IMG/VR virus record: IMGVR_UViG_3300032770_000028 | Span: 1-51,963 of that record | Strand: one strand, 5' to 3' | DNA from: a virus | DNA: 51,963 nucleotides | Part shown: piece after piece, positions 14,702 to 31,629 of the stretch | How positions within the stretch are numbered: the first letter of the stretch is position 1 | Layout: each line of letters opens with the position of its first letter | Made by a program: the position numbers and the translations under genes | The notes under the pieces: model-generated | Seen by the model: the letters and a program-made list of their open reading frames with translations, nothing else | What the model was told of the DNA's origin: nothing | Database searches by the model: none

Positions 14702-14883
14702 GCGATACCTACTTCTGGACAGTCACGGGCTCGCCCACGACACTCGGGCTTCAGCAGGCGCCGCTGCGGCCGTTCGACATCGGCGACGGCTCGCTGCGGT
14801 TCAATCTGATGTGCAACGACGACGCGCCCGTGTTTCTGAATGACGCGTGGCCGTTTACTATCGTGGATGAGGGAGTCGTCTGA
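14698..14883 (+). CDS. Small protein between two tail spikes
   Basis: A protein of 61 residues starting at GTG 14698 in a GTGA overlap with the previous spike and ending in a TGATG overlap with the next. Its layout FWTVTGSPTTLGLQQAPLRP and LRFNLMCNDDAP suggests a compact beta protein. It could be a linker or chaperone for one of the spikes; no family recognised. Confidence 0.6.
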   Translation: MSDTYFWTVTGSPTTLGLQQAPLRPFDIGDGSLRFNLMCNDDAPVFLNDAWPFTIVDEGVV

Positions 14884-16460: not shown

Positions 16461-16489
16461 TTGACAGCGTCTCGACAGTAACGTAATAT
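16461..16489 (+). promoter_or_regulatory. Strong sigma70-like promoter
   Basis: TTGACA at 16461-16466, a 17-base spacer, and TAATAT at 16484-16489, in the only real gap between spike 14883 and the HNH gene at 16520. The -35 box is perfect and the -10 box is one base off. It would start a transcript near 16496, covering the HNH gene and the glycosyltransferase cassette. Confidence 0.75.
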
Positions 16490-16519: not shown

Positions 16520-16975
16520 TTGCAATACTGTAAGGCTGGCCATCCGTTAGATAGCGTTAACGCAAGGGTGCGTTTTCGTCCCGGTCCCCGCAGCGAGGGG
16601 CGCCAGGTCGAATGTCGTGTATGCCAGCGCCTTCGTATGCGTGAATGGAAGCGCAAAAACCCCGAGCGGGCTCGCGCTCAGCAGCGGAAAAGTGCTGCTC
16701 GGCGCAAGGACAAGCACCGCGACTACTCTATCCGTATGCTTTATGGTATAGGCACAGCAGAGTACGATAAGTTGCTTGGGGAACAGGGTGGCGTTTGCGC
16801 CATTTGTCGCCGCAAGAACATTGGCCAACGACGCTTGGGTGTAGATCACAACCACGAAACCAAGAAGATTCGTGGCATTCTTTGCGACCGATGTAATCGG
16901 GGACTTGGGTTCTTTGGGGATCGCGAGGATTTGGTGGCCACGGCCTTGGAGTATCTACGTCAAAAGAACCGCTAG
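16520..16975 (+). CDS. HNH endonuclease, endonuclease VII-like
   Basis: A protein of 151 residues. An N-terminal Cys/His finger (CKAGHPLD...CRVCQ) and a basic helix (REWKRKNPERARAQQRKSAA) precede the catalytic segment CAICRRK...LGVDHNHETKKIRGILCDRCN. The start is TTG 16520; the only nearby ATG (16488) runs into a stop. It has its own promoter and a lower GC content than its neighbours, as expected for a mobile gene. Its end lies on the N-terminal coding stretch of the next gene. Confidence 0.85.
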   Translation: MQYCKAGHPLDSVNARVRFRPGPRSEGRQVECRVCQRLRMREWKRKNPERARAQQRKSAARRKDKHRDYSIRMLYGIGTAEYDKLLGEQGGVCAICRRKNIGQRRLGVDHNHETKKIRGILCDRCNRGLGFFGDREDLVATALEYLRQKNR

Positions 16976-17052
16976 TCTCGGCGATTCTCACAAGGAACGA
17001 AGCGGGGAGATACCTTGGAGAAATTCTCGCTCGATGCAGCGAGTTTGGGAAG

Positions 17053-18840
17053 GTGGTTATCCTTGACGACGCCAGCACGGATGCAACGGAGGAGCTGTGT
17101 CGAAGCAACCCGAACGTGGTTGCTTACCGGAAACGCGAGGCGCAGGCTTCCGCCTGGGGCGCCGAATCGAGTGCCAGACGAGAACTCTGGGACTTGGCCG
17201 CCGAGTACGGAGAGTGGGTGCTGTTCTGCGATGCCGACCAGTTGCTCGTCGGCGACCCCCGACCGCTGCTGCAAACCGTAGAAGCCAACGCCATTGCCTA
17301 CATACTCTACGATTGTTGGCACGAGCGCACGCTCTATCGCGACGATGGCTTTTGGCGAGCCCATCTGCATCCTCGTGCCTGGCTGGTCAATCCTCATCGA
17401 GTACCAAGCGACTGGACGCCTCGATGGTCAGACCGTGGTTGTCATTGCGGTCACCTGCCTGAAAACTTCCCCGCGCGGACTCTGGTGGCGCCTCCGGCAA
17501 CGCATTATTGGTTGCATCTCGGCTACGTCAAAGAAGCTGATCGCGCGGCTAAGCTCGAACGATACCACGCTGTCGGAGGGCAATTGACGGATTTCGAGAA
17601 AGCGCACGCCGAGAGCATTGGGGACAAGCACCCGACGCTCCGGCGCCTGCCAACAGAACAGCCGATCCGCGTGCTTGTCGGCGCCCCCACGCGCAAGCGA
17701 GCGGACGTCCTCAAGGCGCACTTGGACTCGCTGGCGTGGCAGGAACTCCCGCCCCGCGTGGAAGTGGAATACTGCTTTATCAACGATTATCCCGAACCTG
17801 ATGTGGGTGAGGTGATTCTGCAACACTTTGTTGCTGATCGTAAGGGTGTGTTACTGACGCCACAAACCAGGCCGCCAGGGAATGACTTCTCCGACAGCGA
17901 CCCCGTTACCCACCGCTGGACCCAGTCGGCGATGGGCCGCGTGGGGGCGATGCGGCAGCAAATCCTGGCCTACGGCGCCTCGCAGGGCTTCGATTACGTG
18001 TGGATGGTGGATACGGACCTCATCTGCGACAAAACGGTGCTAGCGAGCCTCCTGGCGTGCCAGAAGGCCATCGTGAGCGCCGTATACTGGACGCGCTGGG
18101 AGCGCGTGGGCTTGCACGCGGGGCCGCAGGTGTGGCTGGCGCCCGTGTACGAACTGGGCAAGGGGCCGTTCTACCCCGAGTCGGAGTTTCGCAAGCAGTT
18201 GGCAGACCGCGAGTTAGTGCCAGTCGGCGGGCTGGGCGCCTGTACCTTGATTCGGATGGACGCGATCCGCAAGGGCGTGGGCTACACGCGCTGCCCGAAT
18301 TTCCCCACGGGAGGGCTCTGGGATGGCGAGGACCGACACTTCTGCGAGTGGGCCAAACGTCTCCACGTCGAACTCTGGGCCGACGCGTGGCCCGACATCT
18401 TCCACGTCTACCACACCGATGATGTGGCCCGCGTACCGCTTTGGCAAGAGCGGCTGGGAACCGTTCATCCCGCCAAGCCTCGACCTGGCGACCTTATCAG
18501 CCTCCGCCTGCTCGCCGTCGAGAAGCCCATCGGTTACGAGTTCGTACGCACGCTGCTCAGCGGCGATGCGCTCCTACCTGAGCTTGCACAGGCCGTCTCC
18601 GAGATGACGCGAGGCGAGACGCGGATCGTGCGCGTCCATTTCCCCAAGAGTTGGCCGCTGGAGGAAGTGCAGGGCAAGACGCGGCTCATCGAAGTGATGC
18701 TCATTGACTGCAAGCCGCAGGGCGTGGCGCCCGTGCTGGAAGACGAGTTCCACGTGAGCGCGGCCGGGTTTCGCAAGGACGCGATGGACATGACGCAGCA
18801 GCAGTGCGACTTGCTGGGGAGTGAACATGCCAATGTCTAA
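17053..18840 (+). CDS. Two-domain family 2 glycosyltransferase, start displaced
   Basis: A protein of 595 residues from GTG 17053. The first GT-A domain (residues 1-190) has DDASTD at its very start and FCDADQLLVGD; the second (about 205-430) has VLVGAPTRKRADVLKAHL and the metal-binding VDTDLI. The frame stays open upstream, and 16978-17052 encodes SAILTRNEAGRYL and KVVIL, the normal opening of such enzymes. GTG 17053 therefore gives a truncated domain. No ATG, GTG or TTG exists in frame between the HNH stop and 17053. It transfers a sugar in surface or DNA glycan modification; the substrate is unknown. Confidence 0.8.
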   Translation: MVILDDASTDATEELCRSNPNVVAYRKREAQASAWGAESSARRELWDLAAEYGEWVLFCDADQLLVGDPRPLLQTVEANAIAYILYDCWHERTLYRDDGFWRAHLHPRAWLVNPHRVPSDWTPRWSDRGCHCGHLPENFPARTLVAPPATHYWLHLGYVKEADRAAKLERYHAVGGQLTDFEKAHAESIGDKHPTLRRLPTEQPIRVLVGAPTRKRADVLKAHLDSLAWQELPPRVEVEYCFINDYPEPDVGEVILQHFVADRKGVLLTPQTRPPGNDFSDSDPVTHRWTQSAMGRVGAMRQQILAYGASQGFDYVWMVDTDLICDKTVLASLLACQKAIVSAVYWTRWERVGLHAGPQVWLAPVYELGKGPFYPESEFRKQLADRELVPVGGLGACTLIRMDAIRKGVGYTRCPNFPTGGLWDGEDRHFCEWAKRLHVELWADAWPDIFHVYHTDDVARVPLWQERLGTVHPAKPRPGDLISLRLLAVEKPIGYEFVRTLLSGDALLPELAQAVSEMTRGETRIVRVHFPKSWPLEEVQGKTRLIEVMLIDCKPQGVAPVLEDEFHVSAAGFRKDAMDMTQQQCDLLGSEHANV

Positions 18841-19033
18841 GGAAAAGTGTCTTGAGGACGCGCTACGCTATGCCGTGCTCATCATTCAGAGTTACGAGTC
18901 TGATATACGTAATTCGGATTGGGTGGGCATAGACCTTGTCAAGCGCGGGTTCTGCCAAGGCGATATTTATCGGGGCGCGCTCAAAATGATTGAGCGCCTG
19001 TCTGAACCAGACAGGGTCACATTGCATGGCTGA
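18827..19033 (+). CDS. Hypothetical 68-residue protein
   Basis: It starts at ATG 18827, six bases after GGGGAG; ATG 18833 is an alternative. It overlaps the glycosyltransferase end and the next gene's start. The product is helical and charged (CLEDALRYAVLIIQSYESDI, LVKRGFCQGDIYRGALKMIE). No family recognised. Codon use is lower in GC than in the flanks. Confidence 0.6.
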   Translation: MPMSKEKCLEDALRYAVLIIQSYESDIRNSDWVGIDLVKRGFCQGDIYRGALKMIERLSEPDRVTLHG

Positions 19034-19859
19034 CCAGCAAGTGCAAGTGCCGCCGGGTTGCGTGTTTCTGACCACGTACGGCTTGCTCAGGCACGAGACA
19101 CACCGCTGCATCATGGAAATGCGCAGCCATTGCGAGAAGAACGGGCTCTTCAACATCGCGTGGGAATCCATTCCCGGCATGCTCGTGGACATGGCGCGCA
19201 ACCAAGCCGTAGCCACGATGCTCAGCAAGCCCCCGCTCCAGTGGCTGCTGTTCGTCGATGGGGACGCCACGTTCCAACCCGACGCGCTCATGCGCCTGCT
19301 GCTCTTTGCCTACCGCGACATGCCGAGCGCGGACATTGTGGGCGCGTACAATCCCTTGCGTTCTTCGCCGCACTTGCCGACCATCGATACCGGCACCGGC
19401 ACGTGGGAATCTCATCTGCCGATGAGCGGCCCGATGGAAGTGATGCGCACGGGTAGCGCGTTTGTTTTGCTCAAGCGTCATGTGTTCGAGCGCATCCCCG
19501 GCCCATGGTATGGGGTTAAGAACATGATGCGCCCGATTGACGCGCTGGCCGAAACAGATACGTTTGCGAGAACGAAGTTCGATGGCCGGAACCCCTTGGC
19601 GAACACGCCGGAGTGGCAAGCGTTGTTGAAGTGCGCCAAAGAGGAACAGTCCACGTTTGCACCGCCCGATCCGGTGAGTTTTGTCGGGGAAGATAGCGGT
19701 TGCCTCGATAAGGCTATGTTTGCCGGATGCTCCGCGTGGGTCTTGACAGACGTGGTATGCGGCCACGTGGCTGACAGAATTATCACAGCGGCAGATCATC
19801 GTCGGGCGCTTGGTGAGAACGCACTCAGGCGCAGGCAACTTGTAGGGATAACCCGGTGA
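19026..19859 (+). CDS. Glycosyltransferase, GT-A fold
   Basis: A protein of 277 residues from ATG 19026. VPPGCVFLTTYGLLRHETH opens the fold, DMARNQAVATML precedes LLFVDGDATFQPDAL (DGD as the DxD metal motif, about residues 75-80), and ADIVGAYNPLR follows. This is the pattern of GT2-like proteins in phages and bacterial capsule clusters. It is coupled to the HNH gene at 19856. Sugar and acceptor unknown. Confidence 0.75.
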   Translation: MADQQVQVPPGCVFLTTYGLLRHETHRCIMEMRSHCEKNGLFNIAWESIPGMLVDMARNQAVATMLSKPPLQWLLFVDGDATFQPDALMRLLLFAYRDMPSADIVGAYNPLRSSPHLPTIDTGTGTWESHLPMSGPMEVMRTGSAFVLLKRHVFERIPGPWYGVKNMMRPIDALAETDTFARTKFDGRNPLANTPEWQALLKCAKEEQSTFAPPDPVSFVGEDSGCLDKAMFAGCSAWVLTDVVCGHVADRIITAADHRRALGENALRRRQLVGITR

Positions 19860-20494
19860 AATCTTGCTCTCAGTGTTTCCGCGAACTTGATGAGAGTTGC
19901 TTTCCTCGTATCAAGGCACGGGGCAACCGCGCCGGTTCGTGGTGCAGAGAGTGTTGCGCCAAAAAGAGTGGCGAGTCTTACCGTGCCCACAAAGAGCGTG
20001 CGGCAAAATGGAGCAGAGAATATCGGAAAACGCATGCCGCAGAGATTCGCGAGCGCAATAAACGGTACTACGCTGAAGGGGCAGCAGAACAAATAGCCAA
20101 AGCAGTTGCATGGGCGCGTGCCCACCCAGAACGTCGGCGTGCCACGCGTGCCAAGTGGGCCGCTGCGCATCCCGATCTGGACAAGAAGGCCAAGGTCGAG
20201 TGGAAGCGTCGAAATCCCGACAAGTTAGCCGAGGAGTCAGCACGTCGTCGGGCCAGGAAGCTTAACGCTCCGATCAATGATTTGAGTGGGCGGGTGTGGC
20301 CACTAGTGCAAGCGGTGTTCCGCAACCGTTGCGTATACTGTGGCGAGACGAAGAAACTGACACGCGACCATGTTCAGGCGCTGACCAGGGGCGGCGATCA
20401 CTCGTTGCACAACATTGCCCCGGCGTGCCAATCGTGTAATTCGCGGAAGCACAATGGCCCCGCGCCGACTTTCTGGTGGAAGCGGCGTGTCTAG
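19856..20494 (+). CDS. HNH endonuclease with repeated basic N-terminus
   Basis: A protein of 212 residues from GTG 19856 (GTGA overlap). An N-terminal zinc finger (CSQCFRELDESCFPR...CRECC) leads into basic repeats of the type W-x-x-x-HPE/NPD-(R/K). The C-terminal HNH module is CVYCGETKKLTRDHVQALTR, then HNIAPACQSCNSRKHN. It resembles the HNH at 28456 and differs from the endonuclease VII-like genes. Probably a homing gene. Confidence 0.85.
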   Translation: MKSCSQCFRELDESCFPRIKARGNRAGSWCRECCAKKSGESYRAHKERAAKWSREYRKTHAAEIRERNKRYYAEGAAEQIAKAVAWARAHPERRRATRAKWAAAHPDLDKKAKVEWKRRNPDKLAEESARRRARKLNAPINDLSGRVWPLVQAVFRNRCVYCGETKKLTRDHVQALTRGGDHSLHNIAPACQSCNSRKHNGPAPTFWWKRRV

Positions 20495-20666
20495 ACTCAC
20501 CGCAGTTCCGAGCGGCGTGACGTGCGGCGTGTGCGCGGGCTGGAGCAACGGCGGCTACCGCGAGCAAGAACTCGTCTATACCAGTTGGAACTCGCGGCTG
20601 AGCAATGCCTGCTGCCCGAATTGCGGGGTGCAGTACACGTGGGCAAGGAGCGCGTATGACGCTTAG
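20487..20666 (+). CDS. Small zinc-ribbon protein
   Basis: A protein of 59 residues from GTG 20487 (ATG 20454 would add 11). Two Cys pairs, TCGVCAG and CCPNCGVQY, form a zinc ribbon around a Trp/Tyr-rich middle. It overlaps the HNH gene before it and the membrane protein after it. Function unknown. Confidence 0.6.
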   Translation: MSRLTAVPSGVTCGVCAGWSNGGYREQELVYTSWNSRLSNACCPNCGVQYTWARSAYDA

Positions 20667-21255
20667 GGCAACCGTGGGGCTGGCGCTGGCCTGCGTGCTG
20701 GTGGGTGGCATTGCGGGCTACTGCTATCAGGGCAAGACCGTGGACGCTGCGTACCAGCGGCTGGATAGTGCGTACGTAAATTACAGGCGGCAGCAACCGA
20801 AGGTGGACAGCGTGGACCGCTGGCGCGTGGACACCGTGCGGATCGTGGGCCACGCCATCGCGGGCGACTCGCTCAAGGTGGACAGCCTGACGCGCATCAT
20901 CGCGGGCAAGGACTCGGCCTTCGCTGCCCATCTGCGCGAGGACTCGGCTTCCACGGGCGAGTTCACGGCCTTCGCTCAAGCCGTGCAGGAACGCGACTCG
21001 ACCGAGCGTGCCCAGATCGCCAGCCTCAAGTTCGTCGTGGCCCAGCAGGACACGGATGCCGTGGCGCTGCGCGGGCGGCTGATGCAGGCCAACGCCCTGC
21101 TCGCGCAAGCGATAGGCGTCTCCCGACAACTGGCGAGCCGGGCCGACCGCCGCTGGCACCTCGTGGCCTACGCGGGCTACGGCGCCACCGTTGCCGCCGG
21201 CACGCTCCACGCCGGTCCCCAGGTGGGTGTCGGGATTGGCTATACCCTCTGGTAG
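20656..21255 (+). CDS. Membrane-anchored coiled-coil protein (possible i-spanin)
   Basis: A protein of 199 residues from ATG 20656 behind AAGGAG. Residues 4-25 form an N-terminal signal anchor (ATVGLALACVLVGGIAG). Residues 35-165 are a long charged helical stretch with heptad character. The C-terminal WHLVAYAGYGATVAAGT plus GPQVGVGIGYTLW is beta-like. The layout fits an Rz-like inner-membrane spanin but also other periplasmic phage proteins; no partner lipoprotein was found. Confidence 0.55.
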   Translation: MTLRATVGLALACVLVGGIAGYCYQGKTVDAAYQRLDSAYVNYRRQQPKVDSVDRWRVDTVRIVGHAIAGDSLKVDSLTRIIAGKDSAFAAHLREDSASTGEFTAFAQAVQERDSTERAQIASLKFVVAQQDTDAVALRGRLMQANALLAQAIGVSRQLASRADRRWHLVAYAGYGATVAAGTLHAGPQVGVGIGYTLW

Positions 21256-21294
21256 CGGGTAGATTATAGGGAGACGGTTTACCGAGGAGACACG

Positions 21295-21411
21295 ATGCGC
21301 CGGGTGGTCATGCTGGCCGCAGGGCTGGTCCTCCTTGCTGCGGCGCTCCACTGGAGTCCGCGCCGCCCGGCGCCCCTCTCGCGGCGTGAGGCCGCAGGAT
21401 ACGGACACTAA
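21295..21411 (+). CDS. 38-residue predicted membrane peptide
   Basis: ATG 21295 follows GAGGAG at 21284-21289. The product MRRVVMLAAGLVLLAAALHW plus an 18-residue tail has one membrane segment and a basic Pro/Arg tail. It has no lipobox Cys, so it is not an obvious outer spanin. Next to the coiled-coil membrane protein it may work with it. Confidence 0.5.
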   Translation: MRRVVMLAAGLVLLAAALHWSPRRPAPLSRREAAGYGH

Positions 21412-21414
21412 TCC

Positions 21415-22002
21415 ATGCCCATTACGTGGAACGAAGCCTCTCCCGCTGATACCGACGGCGCCGGCACGGCCGCCAGCGCTCTGCGGTCCCTCAAGGCCAA
21501 TCTCGCTACTGGACTCGCCACGTCCGTGTACTGGCCGGGCAGCGGCGGGGCGTCGGCGGCCAGCGCAGGTTGGCCCAAGATCGGGACGGCACGGCCCCTG
21601 TATGGTACGCAGTCGCAGGTGAGTGCCTATGCCGATGCCTTCCTGATGCTCACCAGTGATACCAGCCGCCTGTTCGCCGTGAACAGCGCTTCCACGGTGT
21701 TCCTCGGGGGCTCGCGGGTGATTGAGTCCTCGACCACGTCGATGGCCGTGAACACGCACTACATCCTGGCGACGGGCCAGCTTCAGAACAGCGTGGTGGG
21801 CGGGTACGGCGTCACGTTCACGCAGGCCCCGGCGCTCATTCTTCAGAACACGGGCGTGAGCGGGTCGGCCACCGCGATCATTCGGGGCGCTCCGTCGGCT
21901 ACCACCTTCATCTTTGATGCCTGGATGCTCGGTTCTAGCTTCACCGCCACGGCATCCACCATCACCTTCACGTACCTGGCCTACGGCCCCGTGAGTTTCT
22001 AG
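21415..22002 (+). CDS. Tail structural protein, paralogue 1
   Basis: A protein of 195 residues. The opening MPITWNEASPADTDGAGTAA, then ALRSLKANLATGL and YWPGSGGASAASAGWP, is repeated in the next gene. The rest is strand-rich and Ser/Thr/Ala rich. It lies directly before the nozzle-like gene, so a tail appendage is likely. No named family recognised. Confidence 0.65.
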   Translation: MPITWNEASPADTDGAGTAASALRSLKANLATGLATSVYWPGSGGASAASAGWPKIGTARPLYGTQSQVSAYADAFLMLTSDTSRLFAVNSASTVFLGGSRVIESSTTSMAVNTHYILATGQLQNSVVGGYGVTFTQAPALILQNTGVSGSATAIIRGAPSATTFIFDAWMLGSSFTATASTITFTYLAYGPVSF

Positions 22003-22003
22003 C

Positions 22004-22663
22004 ATGGCCATCGGCTGGAACGAGTTGCTGCCGAACGACAGCGATTTCTACGCGGGCGACGCCTCGGCCGTACGGAGTCTTGAAACGTCGTTCGCGCAGG
22101 GCATCAGCAACGCGCTGATGTGGCCGGGGAGCGGCGGCAGGAGTTCGGCAAGCGCGGGCTGGCCGCAGTTCGGATTCGGCAGCCGTCCGTGCCTGGACGT
22201 ACAAAGTAACCTCTCCTCCACGGTGTCGGCCTCGCTGATGCTGTCACTGGACTCGGCGTTCACGAGTTCCTCTACGTTCACGATGCGTCTCTGGGACACG
22301 TCCTCCGTCACCACGCAGGTGGTCGGGGGGCGCCTCGCCGTGGAGCACTACTGGCTCCAAGACGGCACCTTCTCGCTGGTCACGGAGGCCGGTCCCCCCA
22401 AGGGCACGCGCTGGGTGATGAGCGGGGGCACGGTCTCGGCCAGCAGCGCGGCGGTGTTCGGTGTCACCTACGGGGCGCCACCGCGCGTGTGGGGAACCGG
22501 GCAGGCTTCGACGTTCCCCGGCGGGATGGAGGAATCGGCGGTGTCGCTCTCGGGCATCACCACGGGTGGCTGCTACACGAACATCGTGTACTGGAACGGG
22601 AGTTCGGAGAATTTGCTGGTGGGCGTGGTGCACTGGCTGAGTCTCGGCACGGTGGCGTTCTGA
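22004..22663 (+). CDS. Tail structural protein, paralogue 2
   Basis: A protein of 219 residues opening MAIGWNELLPNDSDFYAGDA, with AVRSLETSFAQGIS and MWPGSGGRSSASAGWP, the same framework as the gene at 21415. The C-terminal halves have diverged. It joins the nozzle-like gene in a TGATG overlap. The pair reflects tandem duplication in the tail region. Confidence 0.65.
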   Translation: MAIGWNELLPNDSDFYAGDASAVRSLETSFAQGISNALMWPGSGGRSSASAGWPQFGFGSRPCLDVQSNLSSTVSASLMLSLDSAFTSSSTFTMRLWDTSSVTTQVVGGRLAVEHYWLQDGTFSLVTEAGPPKGTRWVMSGGTVSASSAAVFGVTYGAPPRVWGTGQASTFPGGMEESAVSLSGITTGGCYTNIVYWNGSSENLLVGVVHWLSLGTVAF

Positions 22664-24582
22664 TGGCCGTCAAGCGCAGTGGCTCGGGCAAGTACGGGAC
22701 GGGCGTGAGCTTGCCGCAGCCCCCGGCCGCGCCCACGTTCGGGACCGCCTTCGAGGGGCCGCAGAAAGGCGGGCCGACGAGTGCGGCCACCACGATGGAG
22801 CCCAACTGGGGCCTGCCCATCGAGATGCCGCAGCAGCGGTTCCCGCGCAACTTCGCGTACCTGAAAGATCAGGAAACGCCGAAGCCCGAGCCCACGTTCG
22901 GCTCCGACGTGGGGGGCTCGATCTACCAGCCCACGCCCAATAACCCCACGCCCTACGGCACGGACGTGCGGGAGTACGGCAACTACCATTTCCTGAATCT
23001 GCCGCAGACCATCGTGAGCAAGGCCCAGCCGCTCACGTTCGGCCTCAACACGAAGGTGAGCCCACCCGATTTGCCCGCAGGCGTGACGCCGGTAGCCCAG
23101 AACTTCCTCGTCCGCGATGGCGGCATCGAGCCGCGCTACAAGCTGGCGCAGCTCTCGTCCACGAGTCTCCACGACTACACCGTGGGCCTGACGGAGTATT
23201 CCACCACCACGGGGGCCAAGTATCCGGTGGCTGTGAGCCCTGCCACGGTGGCGTGGTTCAACTCGCAGGGCGCCGTATGGTCGAACCTGTCGTATGTGGC
23301 AAACTCGGTGAACGTGAAACCCAGCGGCGCCAATACCGACTACTGGGATTTCGCCGTGACGTATCATCCCACGCTGGACGAGAACATCCTCGTCATGTGC
23401 AACGGGGTGAACCAGGCGTTCGAGTGGGACGGGCCGACGAGCGGCAGCGGCAGCAGCGCGGGGCTCTTTAGCGCGCTCACCAACGCCCCCACGGCCCGCT
23501 ACGTGGCGGAGTTCGATTCCCGCGTGCTGTTCGGCTACATCACCAGCGGGTCCAACGTGTACCCGCAGCGCATCATCTGGACGGGCAAGGGGCTGCCGGA
23601 GACGGCGAACCAGATCGCCTCAGATGGTGGGTTCTACGACCTGCTGGACGCCACGGGCCGGATTCAGCGGCTGGTGGAAGATGGCCAGCGCATCCTCGTG
23701 TTCTTCGAGTACGAGACGTGGCAGGGGTATCGGGCGGACTACCCGTTCGACTTGCAGTTCGTGCCGTTGCATCGGGGCGTGGGGCTGGCGGCGCCGTTCA
23801 GCGCGGCGAAGACTCCCTATGGCACGGCGTTCCTCGGCTCCGACTACCGCATCTACCTGATCCCGCCGGGCGGCACGCCGCAGTGCATCAGCGATGCCAT
23901 CTGGGCGAGTATGCGCGACGAGATTACGAGCCCACAACTCAGCGTGGGCGTGTTCGATCAGCGACTCAATGAATACCAGCTCTATTACCCGGTGGCGGGC
24001 GGCAGCGGGCGGCCCACGCACTCGCGGCACTACAACTTTGCGGACCAGACCTGGACGCCGCACACGTTCGGCATCGACATCGACGCCGCGACGAACGCCA
24101 CGCTTAGCAGCAGCGCCACCACGTTCGGTGGCCTCGTCGGTACGTTCCTTCAGCAGACCCTCACGTACGGGCAGTTGAGCGGCGTGGCGGGCCAGCGTAC
24201 GGTGCTGGCGGGCACGTCCGACGGGACGATTGGCCAGTTCGTCTCGGGCGCCACGGGCGACCTCGGCGCGAGCGTGGATGCCAAGTACCTCGCGCACATC
24301 GGGAATGCGGAATCCGACCGCCGGCTCATGCTCAGCGAACTCTGGATCGACTATCGCGCGGACAGCGCCAGTTCGCTCACCATCAGCGTGAGCCGGGATT
24401 TCGGGCAGAGCTTCGTGCAGAGCTACAGCGTGGCCTTGCCAGCCGCGAACCCCAGCGCGCAGACGGTGGTGCAGGTGGGGCTCAGCGCGGTGTATCCGAG
24501 CGTGCAATTGGAGGACGATCACGGCACGCGGTTCAGGATTCAGCGCGCGCTCGCCCGGCTAGAGGATACGGGCCGTGGCTAG
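22663..24582 (+). CDS. Tail nozzle or DNA-stabilisation-like protein
   Basis: A protein of 639 residues from ATG 22663. After a Pro-rich N-terminus, residues 140-160 read PAGVTPVAQNFLVRDGGIEP, the pattern that opens P22 gp10 / T7 gp12-like nozzle proteins. A long repetitive strand-rich body of propeller type follows (SRVLFGYITSG, QRIIWTGKGLPET, TWQGYRADYPFDLQF, LGSDYRIYLIPPGG). With portal and SU10-like adaptors it would complete the tail channel. The assignment is by pattern and neighbourhood. Confidence 0.65.
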   Translation: MAVKRSGSGKYGTGVSLPQPPAAPTFGTAFEGPQKGGPTSAATTMEPNWGLPIEMPQQRFPRNFAYLKDQETPKPEPTFGSDVGGSIYQPTPNNPTPYGTDVREYGNYHFLNLPQTIVSKAQPLTFGLNTKVSPPDLPAGVTPVAQNFLVRDGGIEPRYKLAQLSSTSLHDYTVGLTEYSTTTGAKYPVAVSPATVAWFNSQGAVWSNLSYVANSVNVKPSGANTDYWDFAVTYHPTLDENILVMCNGVNQAFEWDGPTSGSGSSAGLFSALTNAPTARYVAEFDSRVLFGYITSGSNVYPQRIIWTGKGLPETANQIASDGGFYDLLDATGRIQRLVEDGQRILVFFEYETWQGYRADYPFDLQFVPLHRGVGLAAPFSAAKTPYGTAFLGSDYRIYLIPPGGTPQCISDAIWASMRDEITSPQLSVGVFDQRLNEYQLYYPVAGGSGRPTHSRHYNFADQTWTPHTFGIDIDAATNATLSSSATTFGGLVGTFLQQTLTYGQLSGVAGQRTVLAGTSDGTIGQFVSGATGDLGASVDAKYLAHIGNAESDRRLMLSELWIDYRADSASSLTISVSRDFGQSFVQSYSVALPAANPSAQTVVQVGLSAVYPSVQLEDDHGTRFRIQRALARLEDTGRG

Positions 24583-25012
24583 CCGCCCCGCGTTGGTAGT
24601 TTCGCCCACGGTTAAGCAACAGGCGCTGGCCTATCTGGCTGAGCGGTACGATGAGGATACGCGCGACATAGATGTGATTTGGCTGATGGCAGATATGGTT
24701 GAGCAGTTGCCCGCGAAAGTGCCTCTGCTGCAAACGCCCATTCCTGATGACCCGAACGGGTTGCCCGATGCGTTGTTCGCCTATCTACAACGATGGGCCA
24801 AAGTTCTGTCGGGTGTACGGGTGCTCACGGTATGTCATATGGGGGAGAATCGTAGCGGGCTGGCCAGCGCTTTGTTGCTGATGGCACAGGGCAAAACAGC
24901 CCAAGGGGCCATTGCGGCTATTCGGGCGTCGGGAACTCCGTTAACCGACAATCCGTACTTCCTGTGGAATCCGGGGTTCGTGCGCCAACTAGAGGCGGTC
25001 AGTGGCCAATAG
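24575..25012 (+). CDS. Dual-specificity (tyrosine) phosphatase-like protein
   Basis: A protein of 145 residues from GTG 24575, overlapping the nozzle-like gene by eight bases. The catalytic P-loop CHMGENRSG fits C-x5-R-(S/T), with the nucleophile Cys at about residue 88 and Arg at 94. It is followed by LASALLLMAQG, the usual helix. The residue before Cys is Val, where His is usual. A general-acid Asp may lie in the PIPDDPNG loop (about residues 52-58). It lies between tail genes; the substrate could be a protein, nucleotide or glycan phosphate. Confidence 0.7.
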   Translation: MASRPALVVSPTVKQQALAYLAERYDEDTRDIDVIWLMADMVEQLPAKVPLLQTPIPDDPNGLPDALFAYLQRWAKVLSGVRVLTVCHMGENRSGLASALLLMAQGKTAQGAIAAIRASGTPLTDNPYFLWNPGFVRQLEAVSGQ

Positions 25013-25346
25013 CCCTGGCGCGCAGCGCATCGAGACGCCGCCTTCCACGGTGTCGGCCGATCTTTACGGCTGGCTCACACGGCTCGCGCTGGCCGTGAAC
25101 AACTTGCCAGCCATCAGTTACACGTCCTACGCCTCGCCGGAATCGAACGTCACGGGAGCGCCGGGCGACGTGCTGATTAACTTGGCGGCCGATAGTGGGG
25201 CGACCCGCGTGTGGTACAAGCAATCGGGGGCGACCAATACGCATTGGACAGGTATCGGTGCAGGTGGTGGGGGCACGGGGCCTAGCGGTGCGACAGGAGC
25301 AAGCAACTTGACGATTGCCTATGTAGCAGCGTGGTGTGGCGTATGA
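25002..25346 (+). CDS. Tail fibre-associated protein with collagen-like end
   Basis: A protein of 114 residues from GTG 25002. ASPESNVTGAPGDVLINLAA and TRVWYKQSGATNTHWTGIG form a domain common in phage tail fibres, and a short GTGPSGATGAS collagen-like stretch precedes the end. It joins the next fibre gene by an ATGA overlap. Confidence 0.65.
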   Translation: MANSPGAQRIETPPSTVSADLYGWLTRLALAVNNLPAISYTSYASPESNVTGAPGDVLINLAADSGATRVWYKQSGATNTHWTGIGAGGGGTGPSGATGASNLTIAYVAAWCGV

Positions 25347-26275
25347 TTGTTCTCGACGCCACAACGAAAGCCGTGGAGGTGGTGCTGTCGGCCGCCAAGG
25401 GTGCGAATGATATGGGGGCCTCGGCTTCTTATGCCGACACCAGCGCCATCACCTTCACCCCCGGTAGCTCGCAGGCTTCGACCAATGGCACGTCTGTGGT
25501 CACGCTCGTTACGGCTCCGGCTTCGGGCTACCAGCGGGTCGTGAAGGCCCTCACCGTATACAATCAAGACACCTCGTCGAATACGGTGACGGTGCGCATC
25601 AACTCCAACGGCACCCTGTATAACCAGACTGTGGTGAACCTGGCGGTGGGCGACACGCTGGAGTACAGCGAGACGTTTGGCTGGAAGGTGTTGGCCACGA
25701 CCGGCTACATCAAGAACTCGGCGGGCCTGACGAGTGTACTGGGTACAGCCAATCAAGTCACGCTGACGACGGCTAGCGGCGTGGCGACGGCAAGTTTGCC
25801 GAGTACGTTGACGGTGCCCGGCACGCTCCAGACTACGGGCATTTTCTGCACGCCCGATGGCACTGCCTCGGCGCCGAGCGATACGTTTACCAGCGAGCAG
25901 TCGCTCGGGTTCTATCGGTCGGGCGCGTCGGCCATTGCACAGTCCTACGGCCAGTTGCTGTCGGGAGACGGCACGGCGTCGTTGCCCCCGGATGCCTACT
26001 TGAGCGAGAAGTCGCTGGGTTTCTACCGTTCGGCCAGCAGCATCCAGCGCCTGAGTTACGGTACGTTGGATGCCAGTGCGGGCGGGTTCCTGTTCAAGAA
26101 CCTGGCGATGACCACGGCTACATCGAGTACGACAACCAGTTTCAGCGGCACCACGGCCAAGGTGGCCGATGGGACACTGTATTTCAGCGTGCTGTCGCTG
26201 ACTACGAATGGAGCGGAGTTCGGGTTCCGGTCGGGGCGTACCGTGTATCGGTTCGCGTCCGTGGGTGCCGGATGA
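25343..26275 (+). CDS. Tail fibre protein with duplicated module
   Basis: A protein of 310 residues from ATG 25343. The N-terminal 125 residues form a beta-sandwich-like part (VTLVTAPASGYQRVVKALTV...GDTLEYSETFGWKVL). Residues about 170-240 carry two copies of a module: DGTASAPSDTFTSEQSLGFY and GDGTASLPPDAYLSEKSLGFY. The C-terminal VLSLTTNGAEFGFRSGRTVY matches spike 13424. It is probably a trimeric fibre whose modules have been exchanged within the genome. Confidence 0.7.
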   Translation: MIVLDATTKAVEVVLSAAKGANDMGASASYADTSAITFTPGSSQASTNGTSVVTLVTAPASGYQRVVKALTVYNQDTSSNTVTVRINSNGTLYNQTVVNLAVGDTLEYSETFGWKVLATTGYIKNSAGLTSVLGTANQVTLTTASGVATASLPSTLTVPGTLQTTGIFCTPDGTASAPSDTFTSEQSLGFYRSGASAIAQSYGQLLSGDGTASLPPDAYLSEKSLGFYRSASSIQRLSYGTLDASAGGFLFKNLAMTTATSSTTTSFSGTTAKVADGTLYFSVLSLTTNGAEFGFRSGRTVYRFASVGAG

Positions 26276-26526
26276 CCGTTGACTTCAGGGCGGGCGCCTA
26301 CACGGCCGCAGGAGCGTTCTTCGTGTTACGGGCAGTGCCACTACTCAAGAGTGCGTTGGGCGTGTTCAGCACCAACGGTAACGGCGGGAAGACCGAGTTC
26401 TACTTGGAGCAGATCGCCAGGAACACGGAGACGATGCGGGACTCGCTGGTGGGGCTCACGGCGAAGTTCGAGGCGCACGACAAGGCCACGCTGGACGGGC
26501 TGCGGGACTTGCGGGAGGGACAATGA
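26272..26526 (+). CDS. Small protein with one hydrophobic segment, possible holin partner
   Basis: A protein of 84 residues from ATG 26272 (ATGA overlap). Residues 8-30 are weakly hydrophobic (AGAYTAAGAFFVLRAVPLL). The rest is a charged helix of coiled-coil type (YLEQIARNTETMRDSLVGLT). It lies just before the two-segment membrane protein and the endolysin, so a holin, antiholin or spanin-like role is possible but unproven. Confidence 0.5.
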   Translation: MTVDFRAGAYTAAGAFFVLRAVPLLKSALGVFSTNGNGGKTEFYLEQIARNTETMRDSLVGLTAKFEAHDKATLDGLRDLREGQ

Positions 26527-26729
26527 AAAGCTTGCCGAAGGACTTGGTCGGGTTGGCGCTCGTCGTCTTTGGCGGGCTGGGATTGCTTGCCAAGGTGAGT
26601 CCGTGGCCCTGCGTGGCTGTAGTGGGGCTAGGCGGCGTGCTGATTGACACAGATGACATCATCAAGGTGCTGACCACGGTGGCCCCGTTCCTGTCCAAGT
26701 ATCTGCCCGGTGGCCCACCCGCCCCTTGA
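26523..26729 (+). CDS. Putative holin
   Basis: A protein of 68 residues with two predicted membrane segments (about residues 7-24 and 28-42) joined by a short turn (KVSPWP), and a Pro-rich tail. Size, topology and position 160 bases ahead of the GH108 endolysin fit a class II-type holin that releases the endolysin. Holins lack conserved motifs, so the call is contextual. Confidence 0.55.
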   Translation: MKSLPKDLVGLALVVFGGLGLLAKVSPWPCVAVVGLGGVLIDTDDIIKVLTTVAPFLSKYLPGGPPAP

Positions 26730-26753
26730 CAGGCGCCGCTCAACCCGTACATT
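26726..26753 (+). promoter_or_regulatory. Candidate promoter before the endolysin
   Basis: TTGACA at 26726-26731, a 16-base spacer, and TACATT at 26748-26753 (4 of 6). It overlaps the holin stop codon and lies in the 160-base gap ahead of the endolysin. The predicted start (about 26760) falls at or next to an ATG at 26762, so any transcript would be nearly leaderless. Confidence 0.45.
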
Positions 26754-26761
26754 AGGCGCGC

Positions 26762-26893
26762 ATGAGACATGAAGACAATGGGCCGGAGGAGTCGGGAGTA
26801 GTGACCCGAGACAGAAAGGGCTTGCAACCTGATCTGTATGGCGCAGAGGGTTCCGCGCGGAATCCAACACGCGCGCCGGCCATGTCTCTATGA
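26762..26893 (+). CDS. Small ORF coupled to the endolysin
   Basis: A 43-codon frame starting MRHEDNGPEESGVVTRDRKG and ending in an ATGA overlap with the endolysin start at 26890. It is hydrophilic. The perfect coupling and the promoter upstream suggest a leader peptide or small regulator of endolysin translation. Without homologues it could still be chance in a leader region. Confidence 0.35.
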   Translation: MRHEDNGPEESGVVTRDRKGLQPDLYGAEGSARNPTRAPAMSL

Positions 26894-27414
26894 CTGCCTT
26901 CTCTGACGCGTTGAGTCTGACCCTCACGTTCGAGGGAGGCTTCGTGGACGACCCAGTCGATCACGGGGGCGCAACGAACAGGGGCATCACGCAACGCGTC
27001 TACGACCACTACCGCAACGGGCTGAACCTCCCGCTTCGTACCGTACAGGACATCACCCCCGAAGAGCTGTCGTCCATCTACCTTTCCACGTATTGGGTGC
27101 CAGCCCGTTGCGACGATTTGGCCAAGGCTCCCGGCGTCAAGTTGGCGAAGGTGCACTTCGACGCCGCCGTGAATCACGGACCGGTTCGCGCCATCAAGTT
27201 CTTGCAGGAAGCGGTGGACGTGGAGCCGGATGGCATCTGGGGACCGGAAACGGCCGCTGCGACGGCCACGGCCGACGAGGCCGCCACGATTACCGCCTAT
27301 CTGGCAATCCGCATTGCCCGATACCATCACGACGTGGAGGTGGACCCCTCGCAGGCGAAGTTCCTGCCGGGCTGGCTCAAGCGGGTGGAGCAACTCCGAG
27401 CGGCCGTGTCGTGA
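26890..27414 (+). CDS. Endolysin, GH108 N-acetylmuramidase
   Basis: A protein of 174 residues. The start LTLTFEGGFVDDPVDHGGAT, then NRGITQRVYDHY, is the GH108 signature, with the catalytic Glu in EGGF (about residue 15). VHFDAAVNHGPVRAIKFLQEA and DGIWGPETAAAT form the peptidoglycan-binding domain 3 at residues 95-140. It cleaves the glycan strand of peptidoglycan at lysis. There is no signal peptide, so release needs a holin, supplied by the preceding membrane gene. Confidence 0.9.
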   Translation: MTAFSDALSLTLTFEGGFVDDPVDHGGATNRGITQRVYDHYRNGLNLPLRTVQDITPEELSSIYLSTYWVPARCDDLAKAPGVKLAKVHFDAAVNHGPVRAIKFLQEAVDVEPDGIWGPETAAATATADEAATITAYLAIRIARYHHDVEVDPSQAKFLPGWLKRVEQLRAAVS

Positions 27415-28466
27415 CGCGGTTCCGCTGGGGGCCGGAAGACAAGCGCGCCGTGCTGGAGGCGGCGGTTGAACTCGGCAATGACCGCGTGGCGATTGCCCAC
27501 CGCGTGGGCTGCACGTACAAGCAACTGGACAACTTCATTCCCGACATCCGCGACGAGTACAAGGCCGCCATCGACGCGTTCTATGCCCGGCAGCGGGCGT
27601 TACGTGAGGTGCCTGGGGCGCTTCCCCCCGCCGCCAGTGAGCAGACCGTACGCCCGTTTGCCGTGCCTATTCCCGCTCCGGCCCAGCGCCGCGAAGGCGA
27701 GTTGCTGAAAGCTGTAGTGTTCAGCGACTCTCACATACCGTACCAAGATGACGGCGCGCTGGCGTGTGTGGAAGCCGTGATCCAAGATGCCAAACCCGAC
27801 ATCTTGGTACATCTGGGCGACCTCATTGATGCCGGGGAACTCAGCGAGAAATTCCCGGTTGACCCGCGACGGCTTGGTACGCTCCAGCAAGACATTGACT
27901 TTGCCAGAACGAAGTTGCATCAATGGGCGCAACTGGCACCGCAGGCCGAGCGGTGGATTTTGGAAGGCAATCACGAGTCGAGACTTCAACGGGCCATCTG
28001 GCGGCTTCAAGGGCCGGCGCGCGAGATAGCCAGGCTCGATACGTTCTATGAGAAACTGTCGTGGCCTGAACTGTTGCAACTCAAGGACATCGGGTGGAAG
28101 TGGATTGGTTATCGTGAGCAACCGGGCCGGAGCGTGTTACCAAAACTGCTGGTCAAGCATGGCGATATAGTTTCCCAATGGGCCGGGTTCACGGCCAAGC
28201 GCGAGTGGATGGCCAGCGGCCGGAGCGGCATCAGCGGGCACACACATCGGGCGGTCCCGTGGCCCCATACGGACGACAACGGCGTGGCGCGCTGGATTGA
28301 GGACGGGTGTACCTGTCGCTACGATATTCCATGGGCCACGCACACGGACTGGCAGCAGGCTGTAACCATTCTTACGTGGAATGCCGACCGCTATCTGATG
28401 GACGTGGAGATGCCCTTCATCCGTAACGGGCAACTGCTGTGGCGGGACAAGGTGTATGGCCGATAA
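27411..28466 (+). CDS. Calcineurin-like metallophosphoesterase
   Basis: A protein of 351 residues from GTG 27411 (GTGA overlap with the endolysin). Residues 1-60 look like a helix-turn-helix (VLEAAVELGNDRVAIAHRVG, TYKQLDNF). The phosphoesterase motifs follow in order: FSDSHIP (about 105), HLGDLID (138), LEGNHESRL (183), KHGD (246) and GHTHRA (271), providing two-metal ligands. Phage members of this family cleave phosphodiesters or phosphates in DNA or cyclic nucleotides; the substrate here is unknown. The HTH suggests DNA binding. Confidence 0.82.
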   Translation: MTRFRWGPEDKRAVLEAAVELGNDRVAIAHRVGCTYKQLDNFIPDIRDEYKAAIDAFYARQRALREVPGALPPAASEQTVRPFAVPIPAPAQRREGELLKAVVFSDSHIPYQDDGALACVEAVIQDAKPDILVHLGDLIDAGELSEKFPVDPRRLGTLQQDIDFARTKLHQWAQLAPQAERWILEGNHESRLQRAIWRLQGPAREIARLDTFYEKLSWPELLQLKDIGWKWIGYREQPGRSVLPKLLVKHGDIVSQWAGFTAKREWMASGRSGISGHTHRAVPWPHTDDNGVARWIEDGCTCRYDIPWATHTDWQQAVTILTWNADRYLMDVEMPFIRNGQLLWRDKVYGR

Positions 28467-28989
28467 GCTCCCGTTGGTTGAGCGCAAACGCATTGCTCGT
28501 GCCAAGTGGCGCAAGGCGCATCCCGAGCGCTATCGGGAATTGTGGGAACGTTATCGGGCCGAGAATCCAGAGAAGTGCCGTGCTACTGAGGCCAGGTATC
28601 GGCGTGAAAACCGCGAGCGGTGCAACGAAGCAATTCGCCGTTGGCGAGCTGCGCACCCCGATAAGAAGCGCGAGGAGTCTCGGCGTTATGCTCAGGCGCA
28701 TCGAGATCGTCTGCGCTTTGCCGCAGCCAAGCGCAATGCCCTGAAGTTGTCTGCGCCAGGAACACTTACTTGGCAAGACTGGCAGGACATTCTTGCTGCA
28801 TCGTTGGGGTTCTGTACGTATTGTGGGCGACCCAAGAAGCTGACCATGGATCACATTGAGCCGCTATCCCGAGGTGGCTGGCACGATGCCAGCAACATTG
28901 TAGCGGCGTGCCAGAACTGTAATTCATCCAAGAACCAGGCGACGCTTATCGTGTGGCTGGCAAGGCGTAGGAGGAGACAGGTTGCATGA
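28456..28989 (+). CDS. HNH endonuclease with repeated basic N-terminus
   Basis: A protein of 177 residues. The N-terminal 90 residues are tandem basic units of the form W/Y-R-x-x-(H/N)PE-(K/R). The HNH module CTYCGRPKKLTMDHIEPLSR plus NIVAACQNCNSSKN is at the C-terminus. It is close in layout to the HNH at 19856, with a lower GC content than its flanks. It overlaps the phosphoesterase end and the protease start, leaving both intact. Confidence 0.87.
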   Translation: MADKLPLVERKRIARAKWRKAHPERYRELWERYRAENPEKCRATEARYRRENRERCNEAIRRWRAAHPDKKREESRRYAQAHRDRLRFAAAKRNALKLSAPGTLTWQDWQDILAASLGFCTYCGRPKKLTMDHIEPLSRGGWHDASNIVAACQNCNSSKNQATLIVWLARRRRRQVA

Positions 28990-29351
28990 AACGCAGCGCA
29001 TACAAGACCCTCGGCCAACTCTATGCCGCGTACCACGAAGTCAATCAGTCGCGGTTCGGTATGCTGCTGCCCATGCTGCCCATTTTTATCAATCCCGGCG
29101 TGCGCAAACGCCAGAACTCCGAGGAGCCTGAGATCGCGCATCTCTGGACGGACGACTATACGGGCGCCCCGCGCTACATCGAGTTCTGGGAACACCACGC
29201 CCTGACGGACCACTGGTCATATGTACGGGAGACTTTGCTCCACGAAGTCATCCATGTTTGGCAAGCGGCAACTGGACGCAAGGTTGCCCATGATGCAGTT
29301 TTTCGCCTGATGGCGAAGCGGCTAGGTGTATCGGGGAGGGCCTGCGATTGA
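28986..29351 (+). CDS. SprT-like zinc metalloprotease
   Basis: A protein of 121 residues (ATGA overlap). ETLLHEVIHVWQAATG (about residues 83-98) supplies the HExxH zinc site, and HDAVFRLMAKRLG supplies the downstream His as in SprT/Spartan proteins. Cellular homologues cleave DNA-protein crosslinks. Phage copies are common but uncharacterised. No C-terminal Cys-rich zinc ribbon is present, so this is a minimal catalytic domain. Confidence 0.72.
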   Translation: MKRSAYKTLGQLYAAYHEVNQSRFGMLLPMLPIFINPGVRKRQNSEEPEIAHLWTDDYTGAPRYIEFWEHHALTDHWSYVRETLLHEVIHVWQAATGRKVAHDAVFRLMAKRLGVSGRACD

Positions 29352-29989
29352 GCGTGTCAGTCATCATCAATACCGCCGCACTCGGCGCCAAGTCGGGTGA
29401 AGTATTAAGCAGCGGGAAGGTGCCGCACAAGGCGCGGGCCAAGATTCTCCAGCGCGTGTTGCTGCCCCGCGTGTGCGAGAACCCGCTCGTGGATGAGGTG
29501 ATCGTCGCAGGCGAGTGGCACGAGCCGGGACTCGGGGATCGCTGGCGCTACGTGCCCGTGGCGAGCCAGAACTTCGACTGCACGGATGCGCTGGCCGCGC
29601 GGCAGGCCGGGGCCGAGGCTACGTCCTCCACGTTGCTTGTCTTTCTGCACGACGACCACGTGCCCGCCGAGGACTTCTTCGTGAACCTCGTCTCGCATTA
29701 CGGCACCGACGGGCACTGGGACGTACTGGTGCCCGAACGCCACACGTTCCGGGACGAGCTTGATATCCTGCTGAACAATGGCAAGGAGGACGGTTACGTG
29801 ATGGGCCACGCCTGCGTGATGCGGCGCGAGATGTGGAAGGACTGCCCGTGGACGGACGTGCCGCAAGTCTTTACGTGGGACCAGGGGCACACGATCTTGC
29901 TGAAGCACAAGATGGCGGCCATTCGGTGGGTGCGCGATCTCGCAGTCTACGACGCTGAAGTTGCCTTAGGCGCCGAACCTTGGAAGTGA
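29348..29989 (+). CDS. Glycosyltransferase-like protein
   Basis: A protein of 213 residues from TTG 29348. The opening SVSVIINTAALGAKSG, then PLVDEVIVAGEWHEPG and LLVFLHDDHVPAEDFF (DDH as the metal motif, about residue 101), follows the GT-A order, and GHACVMRREMWKD is the usual acceptor-side helix. It heads an enzyme cassette with a sugar epimerase and a methyltransferase. Substrate unknown. Confidence 0.65.
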   Translation: MSVSVIINTAALGAKSGEVLSSGKVPHKARAKILQRVLLPRVCENPLVDEVIVAGEWHEPGLGDRWRYVPVASQNFDCTDALAARQAGAEATSSTLLVFLHDDHVPAEDFFVNLVSHYGTDGHWDVLVPERHTFRDELDILLNNGKEDGYVMGHACVMRREMWKDCPWTDVPQVFTWDQGHTILLKHKMAAIRWVRDLAVYDAEVALGAEPWK

Positions 29990-29993
29990 GACA

Positions 29994-30959
29994 ATGAGAA
30001 TCCTCGTTAGCGGGTCGTGCGGGTTCATTGGGAGCCACGTTGTAGACCGCCTGCTCGCTGCGCATCACGAAGTGCTGGGCGTGGACTGTCTGGAGCCGCG
30101 CGTGCACCCGGAGCAGATGAAGCCCGCGTGGTGGCCCGACTCCGTCGAACTGCGAGTCTGCCATGCCGACGCCATCACCTACACGGACTTGGCCGAGACC
30201 GAGTGCTTGATTCACTTGGCCGCGCAGGTAGGCGTGGCCGACTCGATGGCCGACCCCGACCGCTACATCCGAGGCAACACCGTCGAGACCACGCAGCTCC
30301 TGCGCAACTTGGAGCAGGCGATGGCGCGCGGGAACTTGAAGCGGCTCGTCGTGGCCAGCAGCATGAGCGTGTACGGGGCAGGCGGCCACCTCGTGCCCGA
30401 GTCCGCGCCCTGCGTGCCTGCGTCCGTCTATGGCCTCACCAAGTACGACCAAGAGCGCCTCTGCCTGATGTGGGGCGCGCAGCACCGCGTGGAGACCGTG
30501 GCCCTGCGGTTCTTCAACGTGTACGGGCCCCGGCAAGCGCTCACGAATCCCTACACGGGCGTGCTGGCCAACTTCGCACAGGCGCTCTTGGCGGGGCAGC
30601 CGCCCATCGTCTACGAGGACGGCGGGCAGACGCGGGACTTCGTGTACGTGGCGGACGTGGCGGATGCCGTCGTGCGCACGGCCACGATGGCGGGCCCCAT
30701 CTTCGGGGCGTACAACGTGTGCACGGGTTGGCCAACCAGCATCCTGACCGCCGCCCGCACGCTGGGTCTCGCACTCGGTCGCCCCGACATCGAGCCTCGC
30801 ATCACCAACACGCAGCGCGAAGGCGACATCCGTGACTGCACGGGCTCGCCCGATCTCTTTGCCAAGCGGACGGGCTGGCGCTCGCGCTGGATGTTCCGCA
30901 CGGGCATTGAGGCTTACGCCAGCTGGTTGCTATCCTTCGACCGTTGGTTGATCGCGTGA
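29994..30959 (+). CDS. NAD-dependent sugar epimerase/dehydratase
   Basis: A protein of 321 residues, the size of UDP-glucose 4-epimerase-like enzymes. The NAD motif is SGSCGFIGSHV (GxxGxxG type with Cys in place of the middle-region Gly, residues 6-16), the catalytic pair is YGLTKYD (Tyr-x3-Lys, about residues 144-150) and SSMSVYG holds the Ser region. RFFNVYGPRQ and YEDGGQTRDFVYV are extended short-chain dehydrogenase signatures. It interconverts nucleotide sugars, probably feeding the phage glycosyltransferases; the exact sugar is unknown. Confidence 0.85.
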   Translation: MRILVSGSCGFIGSHVVDRLLAAHHEVLGVDCLEPRVHPEQMKPAWWPDSVELRVCHADAITYTDLAETECLIHLAAQVGVADSMADPDRYIRGNTVETTQLLRNLEQAMARGNLKRLVVASSMSVYGAGGHLVPESAPCVPASVYGLTKYDQERLCLMWGAQHRVETVALRFFNVYGPRQALTNPYTGVLANFAQALLAGQPPIVYEDGGQTRDFVYVADVADAVVRTATMAGPIFGAYNVCTGWPTSILTAARTLGLALGRPDIEPRITNTQREGDIRDCTGSPDLFAKRTGWRSRWMFRTGIEAYASWLLSFDRWLIA

Positions 30960-31096
30960 CGGTCGCCGCGCGCAAGGCATTAGCCGACTTGGACGAAGCC
31001 CTGCTGCGCTCGCCCCTCAAGAGCGTGGCCGGGCACTGGGCACTGGTACTCATCCGGTTCGAGCGATTGGAGCAGGCGCTCCGGGGGAATCCGTGA
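30956..31096 (+). CDS. 46-residue helical protein
   Basis: GTG 30956 overlaps the epimerase TGA and its own TGA overlaps the next GTG at 31093, both by four bases. The product MTVAARKALADLDEALLRSP then LKSVAGHWALVLIRFERLEQ is an amphipathic helix pair. The double coupling makes it a credible gene despite its size. Function unknown. Confidence 0.55.
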   Translation: MTVAARKALADLDEALLRSPLKSVAGHWALVLIRFERLEQALRGNP

Positions 31097-31629
31097 CCGA
31101 CTTGGATGCCTACCGCAGCGGCAGCGCGGAGCCGTGGACCGTGGACGTACTGTGTGCGCTGATTCGGGCGAAGAAACCCCACGTACTGATCGAGACCGGC
31201 ACGTTCGAGGGCCGTACCTCCATCGCCATGTTCCACGCCATGGAAGCCTACGCGAGCCAGCACGGAGCGCTGCTCTGGACGCTGGAGAACGACCGCGAGC
31301 GCATCCTGCGGGCCTTTGAGCGCATCAAGCCCATCACGACCGACACCTATAGCGGCGTGAATCTGATCGAGTGCGATGCATTGGAATGGCTGCGCGGTCG
31401 CCCGGACAATTTCTGCGACTTCGTGTTTCTGGATGACGACCACACGGCAGCTCACGTAGGGCTGGAACTGGACGAGTGCCTGCGCATCGTCCGGCCCGGC
31501 GGGCTCATCTGCGGGCACGACGTGGTGGGGCCATTCGGACTCGACATTGAGTTCAAGAAGCGCGGGGGCGTGGTGCTGGAGTTCGAGCGCCTGCACGCGG
31601 CGGGCGGACTGGGGCTACTGACTAAGTGA
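31093..31629 (+). CDS. SAM-dependent methyltransferase (Methyltransf_24-like)
   Basis: A protein of 178 residues from GTG 31093. LIETGTFEGRTSIAMF (residues 32-47) is the SAM-binding motif I of class I enzymes, DFVFLDDDHTAAHV (about 115) is the metal/catalytic acidic motif and GLICGHDVVG follows. The pattern matches methyltransferases acting on sugars or small molecules in surface-glycan clusters. A sugar O-methyltransferase is the likely role given the epimerase and glycosyltransferase neighbours. Confidence 0.75.
   Translation: MTDLDAYRSGSAEPWTVDVLCALIRAKKPHVLIETGTFEGRTSIAMFHAMEAYASQHGALLWTLENDRERILRAFERIKPITTDTYSGVNLIECDALEWLRGRPDNFCDFVFLDDDHTAAHVGLELDECLRIVRPGGLICGHDVVGPFGLDIEFKKRGGVVLEFERLHAAGGLGLLTK

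Follow-up and report, generated by a model that had tools for sequence, protein, structure and literature searches.

Glycosyltransferases of phages that act on DNA are known, and the enzymes SunS, ThuS and GmaR act on secreted peptides or flagellin. Glycosylation of the virion itself is described for mycobacteriophages: Che8 and its relatives are reported to have glycosylated major capsid proteins and their own glycosyltransferase genes (Freeman et al. 2023, cited in PMC11256854). The locus presented here belongs to the IMG/VR virus record IMGVR_UViG_3300032770_000028, whose whole length of 51,963 bases is referred to as the window. It comprises six genes: a double glycosyltransferase (GT), a second GT, a third GT-like gene, a nucleotide-sugar epimerase of the short-chain dehydrogenase/reductase (SDR) class, a methyltransferase and a WecB-type UDP-GlcNAc 2-epimerase (Table 1). 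The preferred reading, with a probability of roughly 0.6, is that these genes of the late region serve phage-encoded, cytoplasmic glycosylation of virion proteins.

Conservation of the set was followed in 13 uncultured relatives from public metagenomes, whose capsids are 47-74% identical to that of the window. A protein search with the epimerase led to the first relative, where all six genes are present in the order of the window, and profiles led to twelve more contigs. Counts out of 14 refer to the window plus these relatives, many of which are fragments, and G numbers are used where phages have to be told apart. The double GT and the second GT occur together, directly behind the tail-spike slot, in all 14 phages. 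Where contigs extend far enough, most also hold the third GT-like gene, the sugar SDR, the methyltransferase and the gene next to it. Pairwise distances of the GTs, the methyltransferase and the next gene follow those of the major capsid protein and the portal (r 0.71-0.84), and over the same genome pairs the second GT (GT18990) is as conserved as the portal (52% versus 49% identity). Even at 30-60% identity the late genes of the set are still present and in the same order. Early genes can scarcely be recognised at this divergence: no match in the relatives was obtained for RepA, ssb, the RecB-like nuclease, the metallophosphoesterase or a 1194-aa protein. Since the order recurs in diverged relatives, the genes are together beyond chance.

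The exception is WecB, identified in six of the seven informative genomes (G000, G001, G003, G004, G006 and G007), absent from the complete genome G014, and with distances correlating poorly with capsid (r 0.20) and portal (r 0.38). The set is part of the virion-gene core of the lineage, with WecB as a looser associate. Joint occurrence of the six genes, raised in the first-pass annotation made from the letters of the window, was borne out for five of them, which recur in order and track capsid and portal; it did not extend to WecB, and the SDR type is swapped in a second clade. A loose collection of accessory genes with no joint function would fit the distribution of WecB and the variation of SDR and extra methyltransferase genes between clades, but the constancy of the late genes largely refutes it for those genes, and it is regarded as extremely improbable.

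Table 1. Features of the glycosyltransferase locus in the window. Residue numbers of the double GT are counted from the GTC at 16975.
Feature	Position	Strand	Evidence	Occurrence
Spike/tail protein upstream of the GT pair	14883..16451	+	PHROG tail protein, E 4e-5, C-terminal stretch only	
Promoter-like TTGACA-17-TAATAT before the HNH and GT genes	16461..16489	+	Scan	
Endonuclease VII-type HNH gene, mobile, outside the set	16520..16975	+	PF02945, E 1e-21	
Double GT with FKBP-like C-terminus	16975..18840	+	Pfam, PDB profiles, model, fold	14/14 phages
Double GT, GT-A domain	residues 1-219			
Double GT, COLGALT1-like GT-A domain	residues 228-495			
Double GT, FKBP/trigger-factor-like domain	residues about 500-600			
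Second GT, GT-A fold, soluble	19026..19859	+	Alignment of 12, model, fold	14/14 phages
Probable third GT, GT-A-like, weak	29348..29989	+	PF00535, E 0.0055, below cut-off	9 contigs
GalE-like SDR nucleotide-sugar epimerase	29994..30959	+	PF01370, E 9e-48	
O-methyltransferase class, Methyltransf_24	31093..31629	+	PF13578, E 2.5e-11; alignment of 6	7 contigs
Gene after the methyltransferase	31626..32315	+	r 0.74 with capsid	8 contigs
Non-hydrolysing UDP-GlcNAc 2-epimerase, WecB type	48048..49112	-	PF02350, E 1e-68	

The core of the set is the double GT. It had been annotated at 17053 as a glycosyltransferase-like protein, and assignment to GT2 held (PF13704 E 9e-8 and PF00535 E 7e-7, both above the Pfam cut-off); its description was corrected to two GT-A domains and an FKBP-like domain, in a frame that opens upstream of 17053. 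The family profile matched GmaR, SunS and COLGALT1 in the PDB (3e-6 each) and trigger factor at the C-terminus. The predicted model scored 84.7 in the predicted local distance difference test (pLDDT) and 0.82 in predicted template modelling (pTM). In this model the first GT-A domain has ThuS (Z 16.0) and also SunS as fold neighbours, and the middle domain aligned over 245 residues with human COLGALT1 (Z 23.8, 20% identity), well beyond the 15-16 that is general among GT-A folds. By the profile of the middle domain alone, COLGALT1 was the only PDB molecule matched (E 4e-7). The profile of the C-terminal domain matched FKBP (5e-5) and trigger factor (2e-4); FKBP_C was the top Pfam match in 6 of 10 members, every time below cut-off, and trigger factor the sole NCBIfam match of the window protein. 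The strand-strand-helix-strand-strand order of this domain in the model is compatible with the peptidyl-prolyl isomerase fold of FKBP and trigger factor. Several relatives encode the two GT domains as separate adjoining genes, so the fusion is not shared by every member. Profile comparison gave no proof that the GT domains of the set share an ancestor. No clear membrane segment was found in the GTs, which are read as soluble.

The second GT has invariant D-x-D, TIDTGTGTWE and GED motifs. Its PF00535 match is below cut-off in the window (E 0.008) and above it in two relatives. The top fold matches of its model (pLDDT 80) are the viral GT STIV A197 (Z 17.6) and the collagen GT LH3 (Z 17.1), with mimivirus R699 also near (LH3 and R699 at Z 16-17). 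The gene at 29348 probably encodes a third GT, judging from D-D and D-x-E positions that are invariant in 9 sequences; its Pfam match is lacking in four relatives and PHROGs gave none. The three GT-like proteins first proposed are thus upheld for the two genes behind the spike slot, and more weakly for 29348.

The sugar-tailoring genes differ between clades. The assignment of 29994 as an NAD-dependent sugar epimerase was confirmed. GalE is its top NCBIfam match, although the TIGR01179 equivalog cut-off is missed (120.1 versus 262.3 bits), and it is 52-57% identical to the SDRs of G001, G003 and G005. This GalE-like SDR characterizes clade A, whereas clade B (G006, G007 and G014) carries instead an SDR resembling dTDP-glucose 4,6-dehydratase (E 1e-75 to 3e-84, below the equivalog cut-off), adjoined by a C-methyltransferase gene (Methyltransf_13/14 matches in G006 and G007, by eye in G014). 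Extra tailoring genes are two more SDRs in G003 and a second Methyltransf_24 gene in G001. Such clade-specific sugar genes suggest one attachment machine with exchangeable sugars. In the sugar cluster of G003 a further gene (L025, 14287-15012) looks deacetylase-like by eye and had no Pfam match.

The UDP-GlcNAc 2-epimerase at 48048 was likewise confirmed: it passes the curated TIGR00236 (wecB) cut-off (246.6 versus 210.15 bits), the NeuC model stays below its own cut-off, and the active-site D, E, E and H motifs were read in the sequence. A ManNAc-derived sugar, as first suggested, agrees with the presence of WecB in most informative genomes, but it is not obligatory, since one complete genome lacks WecB, whose distances do not follow those of the capsid. 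Enzymes of the WecB and GalE types commonly take part in the synthesis of surface sugars. Modification of the host surface (O-antigen, teichoic acid or capsule) that masks receptors from progeny or competing phages would fit these two enzymes, as well as the likeness of the GT-A domains to the wall teichoic acid and polysaccharide GTs TarP, TarS and RmlT. The set, however, shows no membrane GT or flippase, its genes are placed among the late virion genes and evolve together with the structural ones, and a 12-member GT profile found no relative in the bacterial and archaeal genome collection, hence no sign of a lysogenic lineage. This explanation is unlikely.

The protein at 31093 is a methyltransferase as annotated; the qualifier sugar-type was not established, its PDB matches being of the O-methyltransferase/COMT class. 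The gene that follows had no Pfam match in the window or in four relatives and is acetyltransferase-like by eye only. The top PHROG match of the methyltransferase is labelled DNA-methyltransferase and is weak (E 4.5e-5), which together with the DNA-acting phage enzymes would speak for GTs that put sugars on modified bases in phage DNA, the situation in T4-like and TET/JBP-carrying phages. Thymidylate synthase/hydroxymethylase (PF00303) was not found in six genomes, however, nor was a Tet_JBP match (PF12851) in six genomes, in a scan run without a positive control, which does not establish its absence. The nearest GT folds work on proteins or glycans, and early genes are hardly shared among the relatives while the GTs are. 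Action on DNA is very improbable.

The position of the GT pair points to a virion substrate. In G003, G006, G007 and G011 the open reading frame in the spike slot and the GT gene behind it share four bases (ATGA or GTGA) that hold the stop of the former and the start of the latter, and the spike encoded at 14883 is suggested as the acceptor of the GTs. A host protein as target (pilin, flagellin, a defence or translation factor) would be in line with GmaR and COLGALT1, which modify flagellin and collagen and are protein GTs generally; the fixed spot behind the spike slot and the start/stop overlap in four phages fit a virion substrate better, and a host target is held to be unlikely. Among the targets offered by the first-pass annotation, three lines favour the virion protein: the nearest folds, the presence of an FKBP-like domain and the link to the spike slot. 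DNA and host surface lack support. Its two beta-helix spikes, which found no Pfam match, and its lectin-like surface protein were not confirmed; the gene at 9853 matches an Ig-like invasin domain.

Glycosylation of virion proteins is favoured because most neighbours of the GTs are protein GTs, the double GT carries a chaperone-like domain that would suit a protein substrate, and the gene products are soluble and encoded late, in association with the spike slot. With gene identities, folds, co-inheritance and synteny established, we infer a protein acceptor, its identity and an order of steps. Donors would be supplied by the nucleotide-sugar enzymes, the GalE-like epimerase in the clade of the window and, in most members, WecB, which would provide UDP-ManNAc. 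The FKBP/trigger-factor-like domain of the double GT may bind unfolded or newly made virion protein, the first GT-A domain would put the first sugar on a side chain, the second GT-A domain and the separate GTs would lengthen the glycan, and the methyltransferase would cap it. The likeliest acceptor would be the tail spike encoded just upstream, with small Ser/Thr-rich virion proteins as alternatives. The outcome would be a variable glycan coat of the virion, protecting it or tuning adsorption. The small virion proteins contain 24-31% Ser+Thr.

Several observations weigh against this reading. The four-base overlap is absent in the window, where the HNH gene intervenes and the GT frame has no ATG, GTG or TTG start upstream of 17053; for these reasons the double GT of the window may be impaired. 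Single sequences give a weak signal for the FKBP-like domain, their matches staying below the Pfam cut-off. TarP, TarS, RmlT and hyaluronan synthase also reach Z 14-16 against the GT models of the set, so that, GT-A folds being promiscuous, the acceptor class is not fixed by fold. A collagen-like acceptor, an idea taken from COLGALT1 and LH3, does not stand as a general rule: a collagen-like repeat of 38 triplets was identified in G006 only (L028 18311-18652, equal to G006 38311-38652), behind the virion structural genes.

The double GT of G014 likewise had no ATG, GTG or TTG start; by eye, ACG at 16957 after GGAG (window) and ATC (G014) are possible starts. The two halves of the double GT are separated in G013 and G014 by matches to an HNH gene of the endonuclease VII type. 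With HNH genes at differing points of the GT locus in three phages, the locus seems to be visited by homing-type endonucleases. An Rfam scan found no RNA family, so a known group I intron does not account for the HNH gene before the GT. Promoter-like sites such as the one in Table 1 number 6 versus 3.9 expected in shuffles, which is suggestive only. More HNH-type genes with Pfam matches are at 1174-1707, 19856-20494 and 28456-28989 of the window, and 50834-51331 is HNH-like by eye, without a Pfam match.

The window carries the same 127 bases at both ends (1-127 and 51837-51963) and a terminase gene spans the end junction; the phage genome is therefore a closed circle of 51,836 bp. A repeat of this length also occurs in G003 and in G014, the latter closed by its own repeat. 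The portal of the window matches SU10-portal and its capsid Phage_capsid_4. In the capsid and GT trees G006-G009, G010, G011 and G014 split from the group of the window, with several forks open. A megablast of the studied region against phage records gave no match, and neither did a search for close relatives with a virion structural protein. A repeated motif of the SEKSLGFYRSGAS type is common to the virion proteins at 8501-9016, 13400-14701 and 25331-26275 of the window, with many copies in G003. On the minus strand, 37649-37939 encodes a small GroES/Cpn10-like protein (E 0.004, below cut-off), kept in G001 and G005, which is possibly a phage co-chaperonin.

Few examples of phage virion glycosylation are known; if the preferred reading is true, it is here as conserved as the portal, glycan coats could be a core trait of bacterial viruses, one that evolves, and the lineage would offer a soluble bifunctional protein glycosyltransferase. 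A more specific proposal is tentative and rather doubtful: an undescribed machine in which collagen- and glycocin-type GT domains, fused to a trigger-factor-like domain, would act on the new spike by translational coupling and, with interchangeable tailoring cassettes, produce a phage-specific virion glycan. None of the papers searched dealt with FKBP or trigger factor domains in a phage GT, and GT relatives are absent from 50,697 phage records (nucleotide and tblastn searches), with the exception of a 28% match to the N-half in GX15bay.

Compared with known systems, Caudovirales GX15bay (MK557849) likewise carries a methyltransferase and several GTs, close to its terminase; the GT of that match corresponds to the first domain, the rest of the double GT is unmatched and the arrangement differs. 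COLGALT1, LH3 and mimivirus R699 share the fold of the second GT domain and the separate GT, at identities of 20% or less, and most phage members are without a collagen repeat. The glycocin S-glycosyltransferases SunS and ThuS and the flagellar GmaR resemble the first GT domain by profile (GmaR, SunS) or fold (ThuS, SunS), whereas in the phage this domain is joined in one protein to another GT and to an FKBP-like domain. The latter, by profile, resembles the peptidyl-prolyl isomerases trigger factor and FKBP, and in the phage appears fused to GTs. Virion glycosylation as such is already known from the mycobacteriophages, which are alike in their phage-borne GT genes. The phage of the window differs in its double GT with an FKBP-like domain, an architecture not found described, in its sugar epimerases and methyltransferase, and in being another type of phage.

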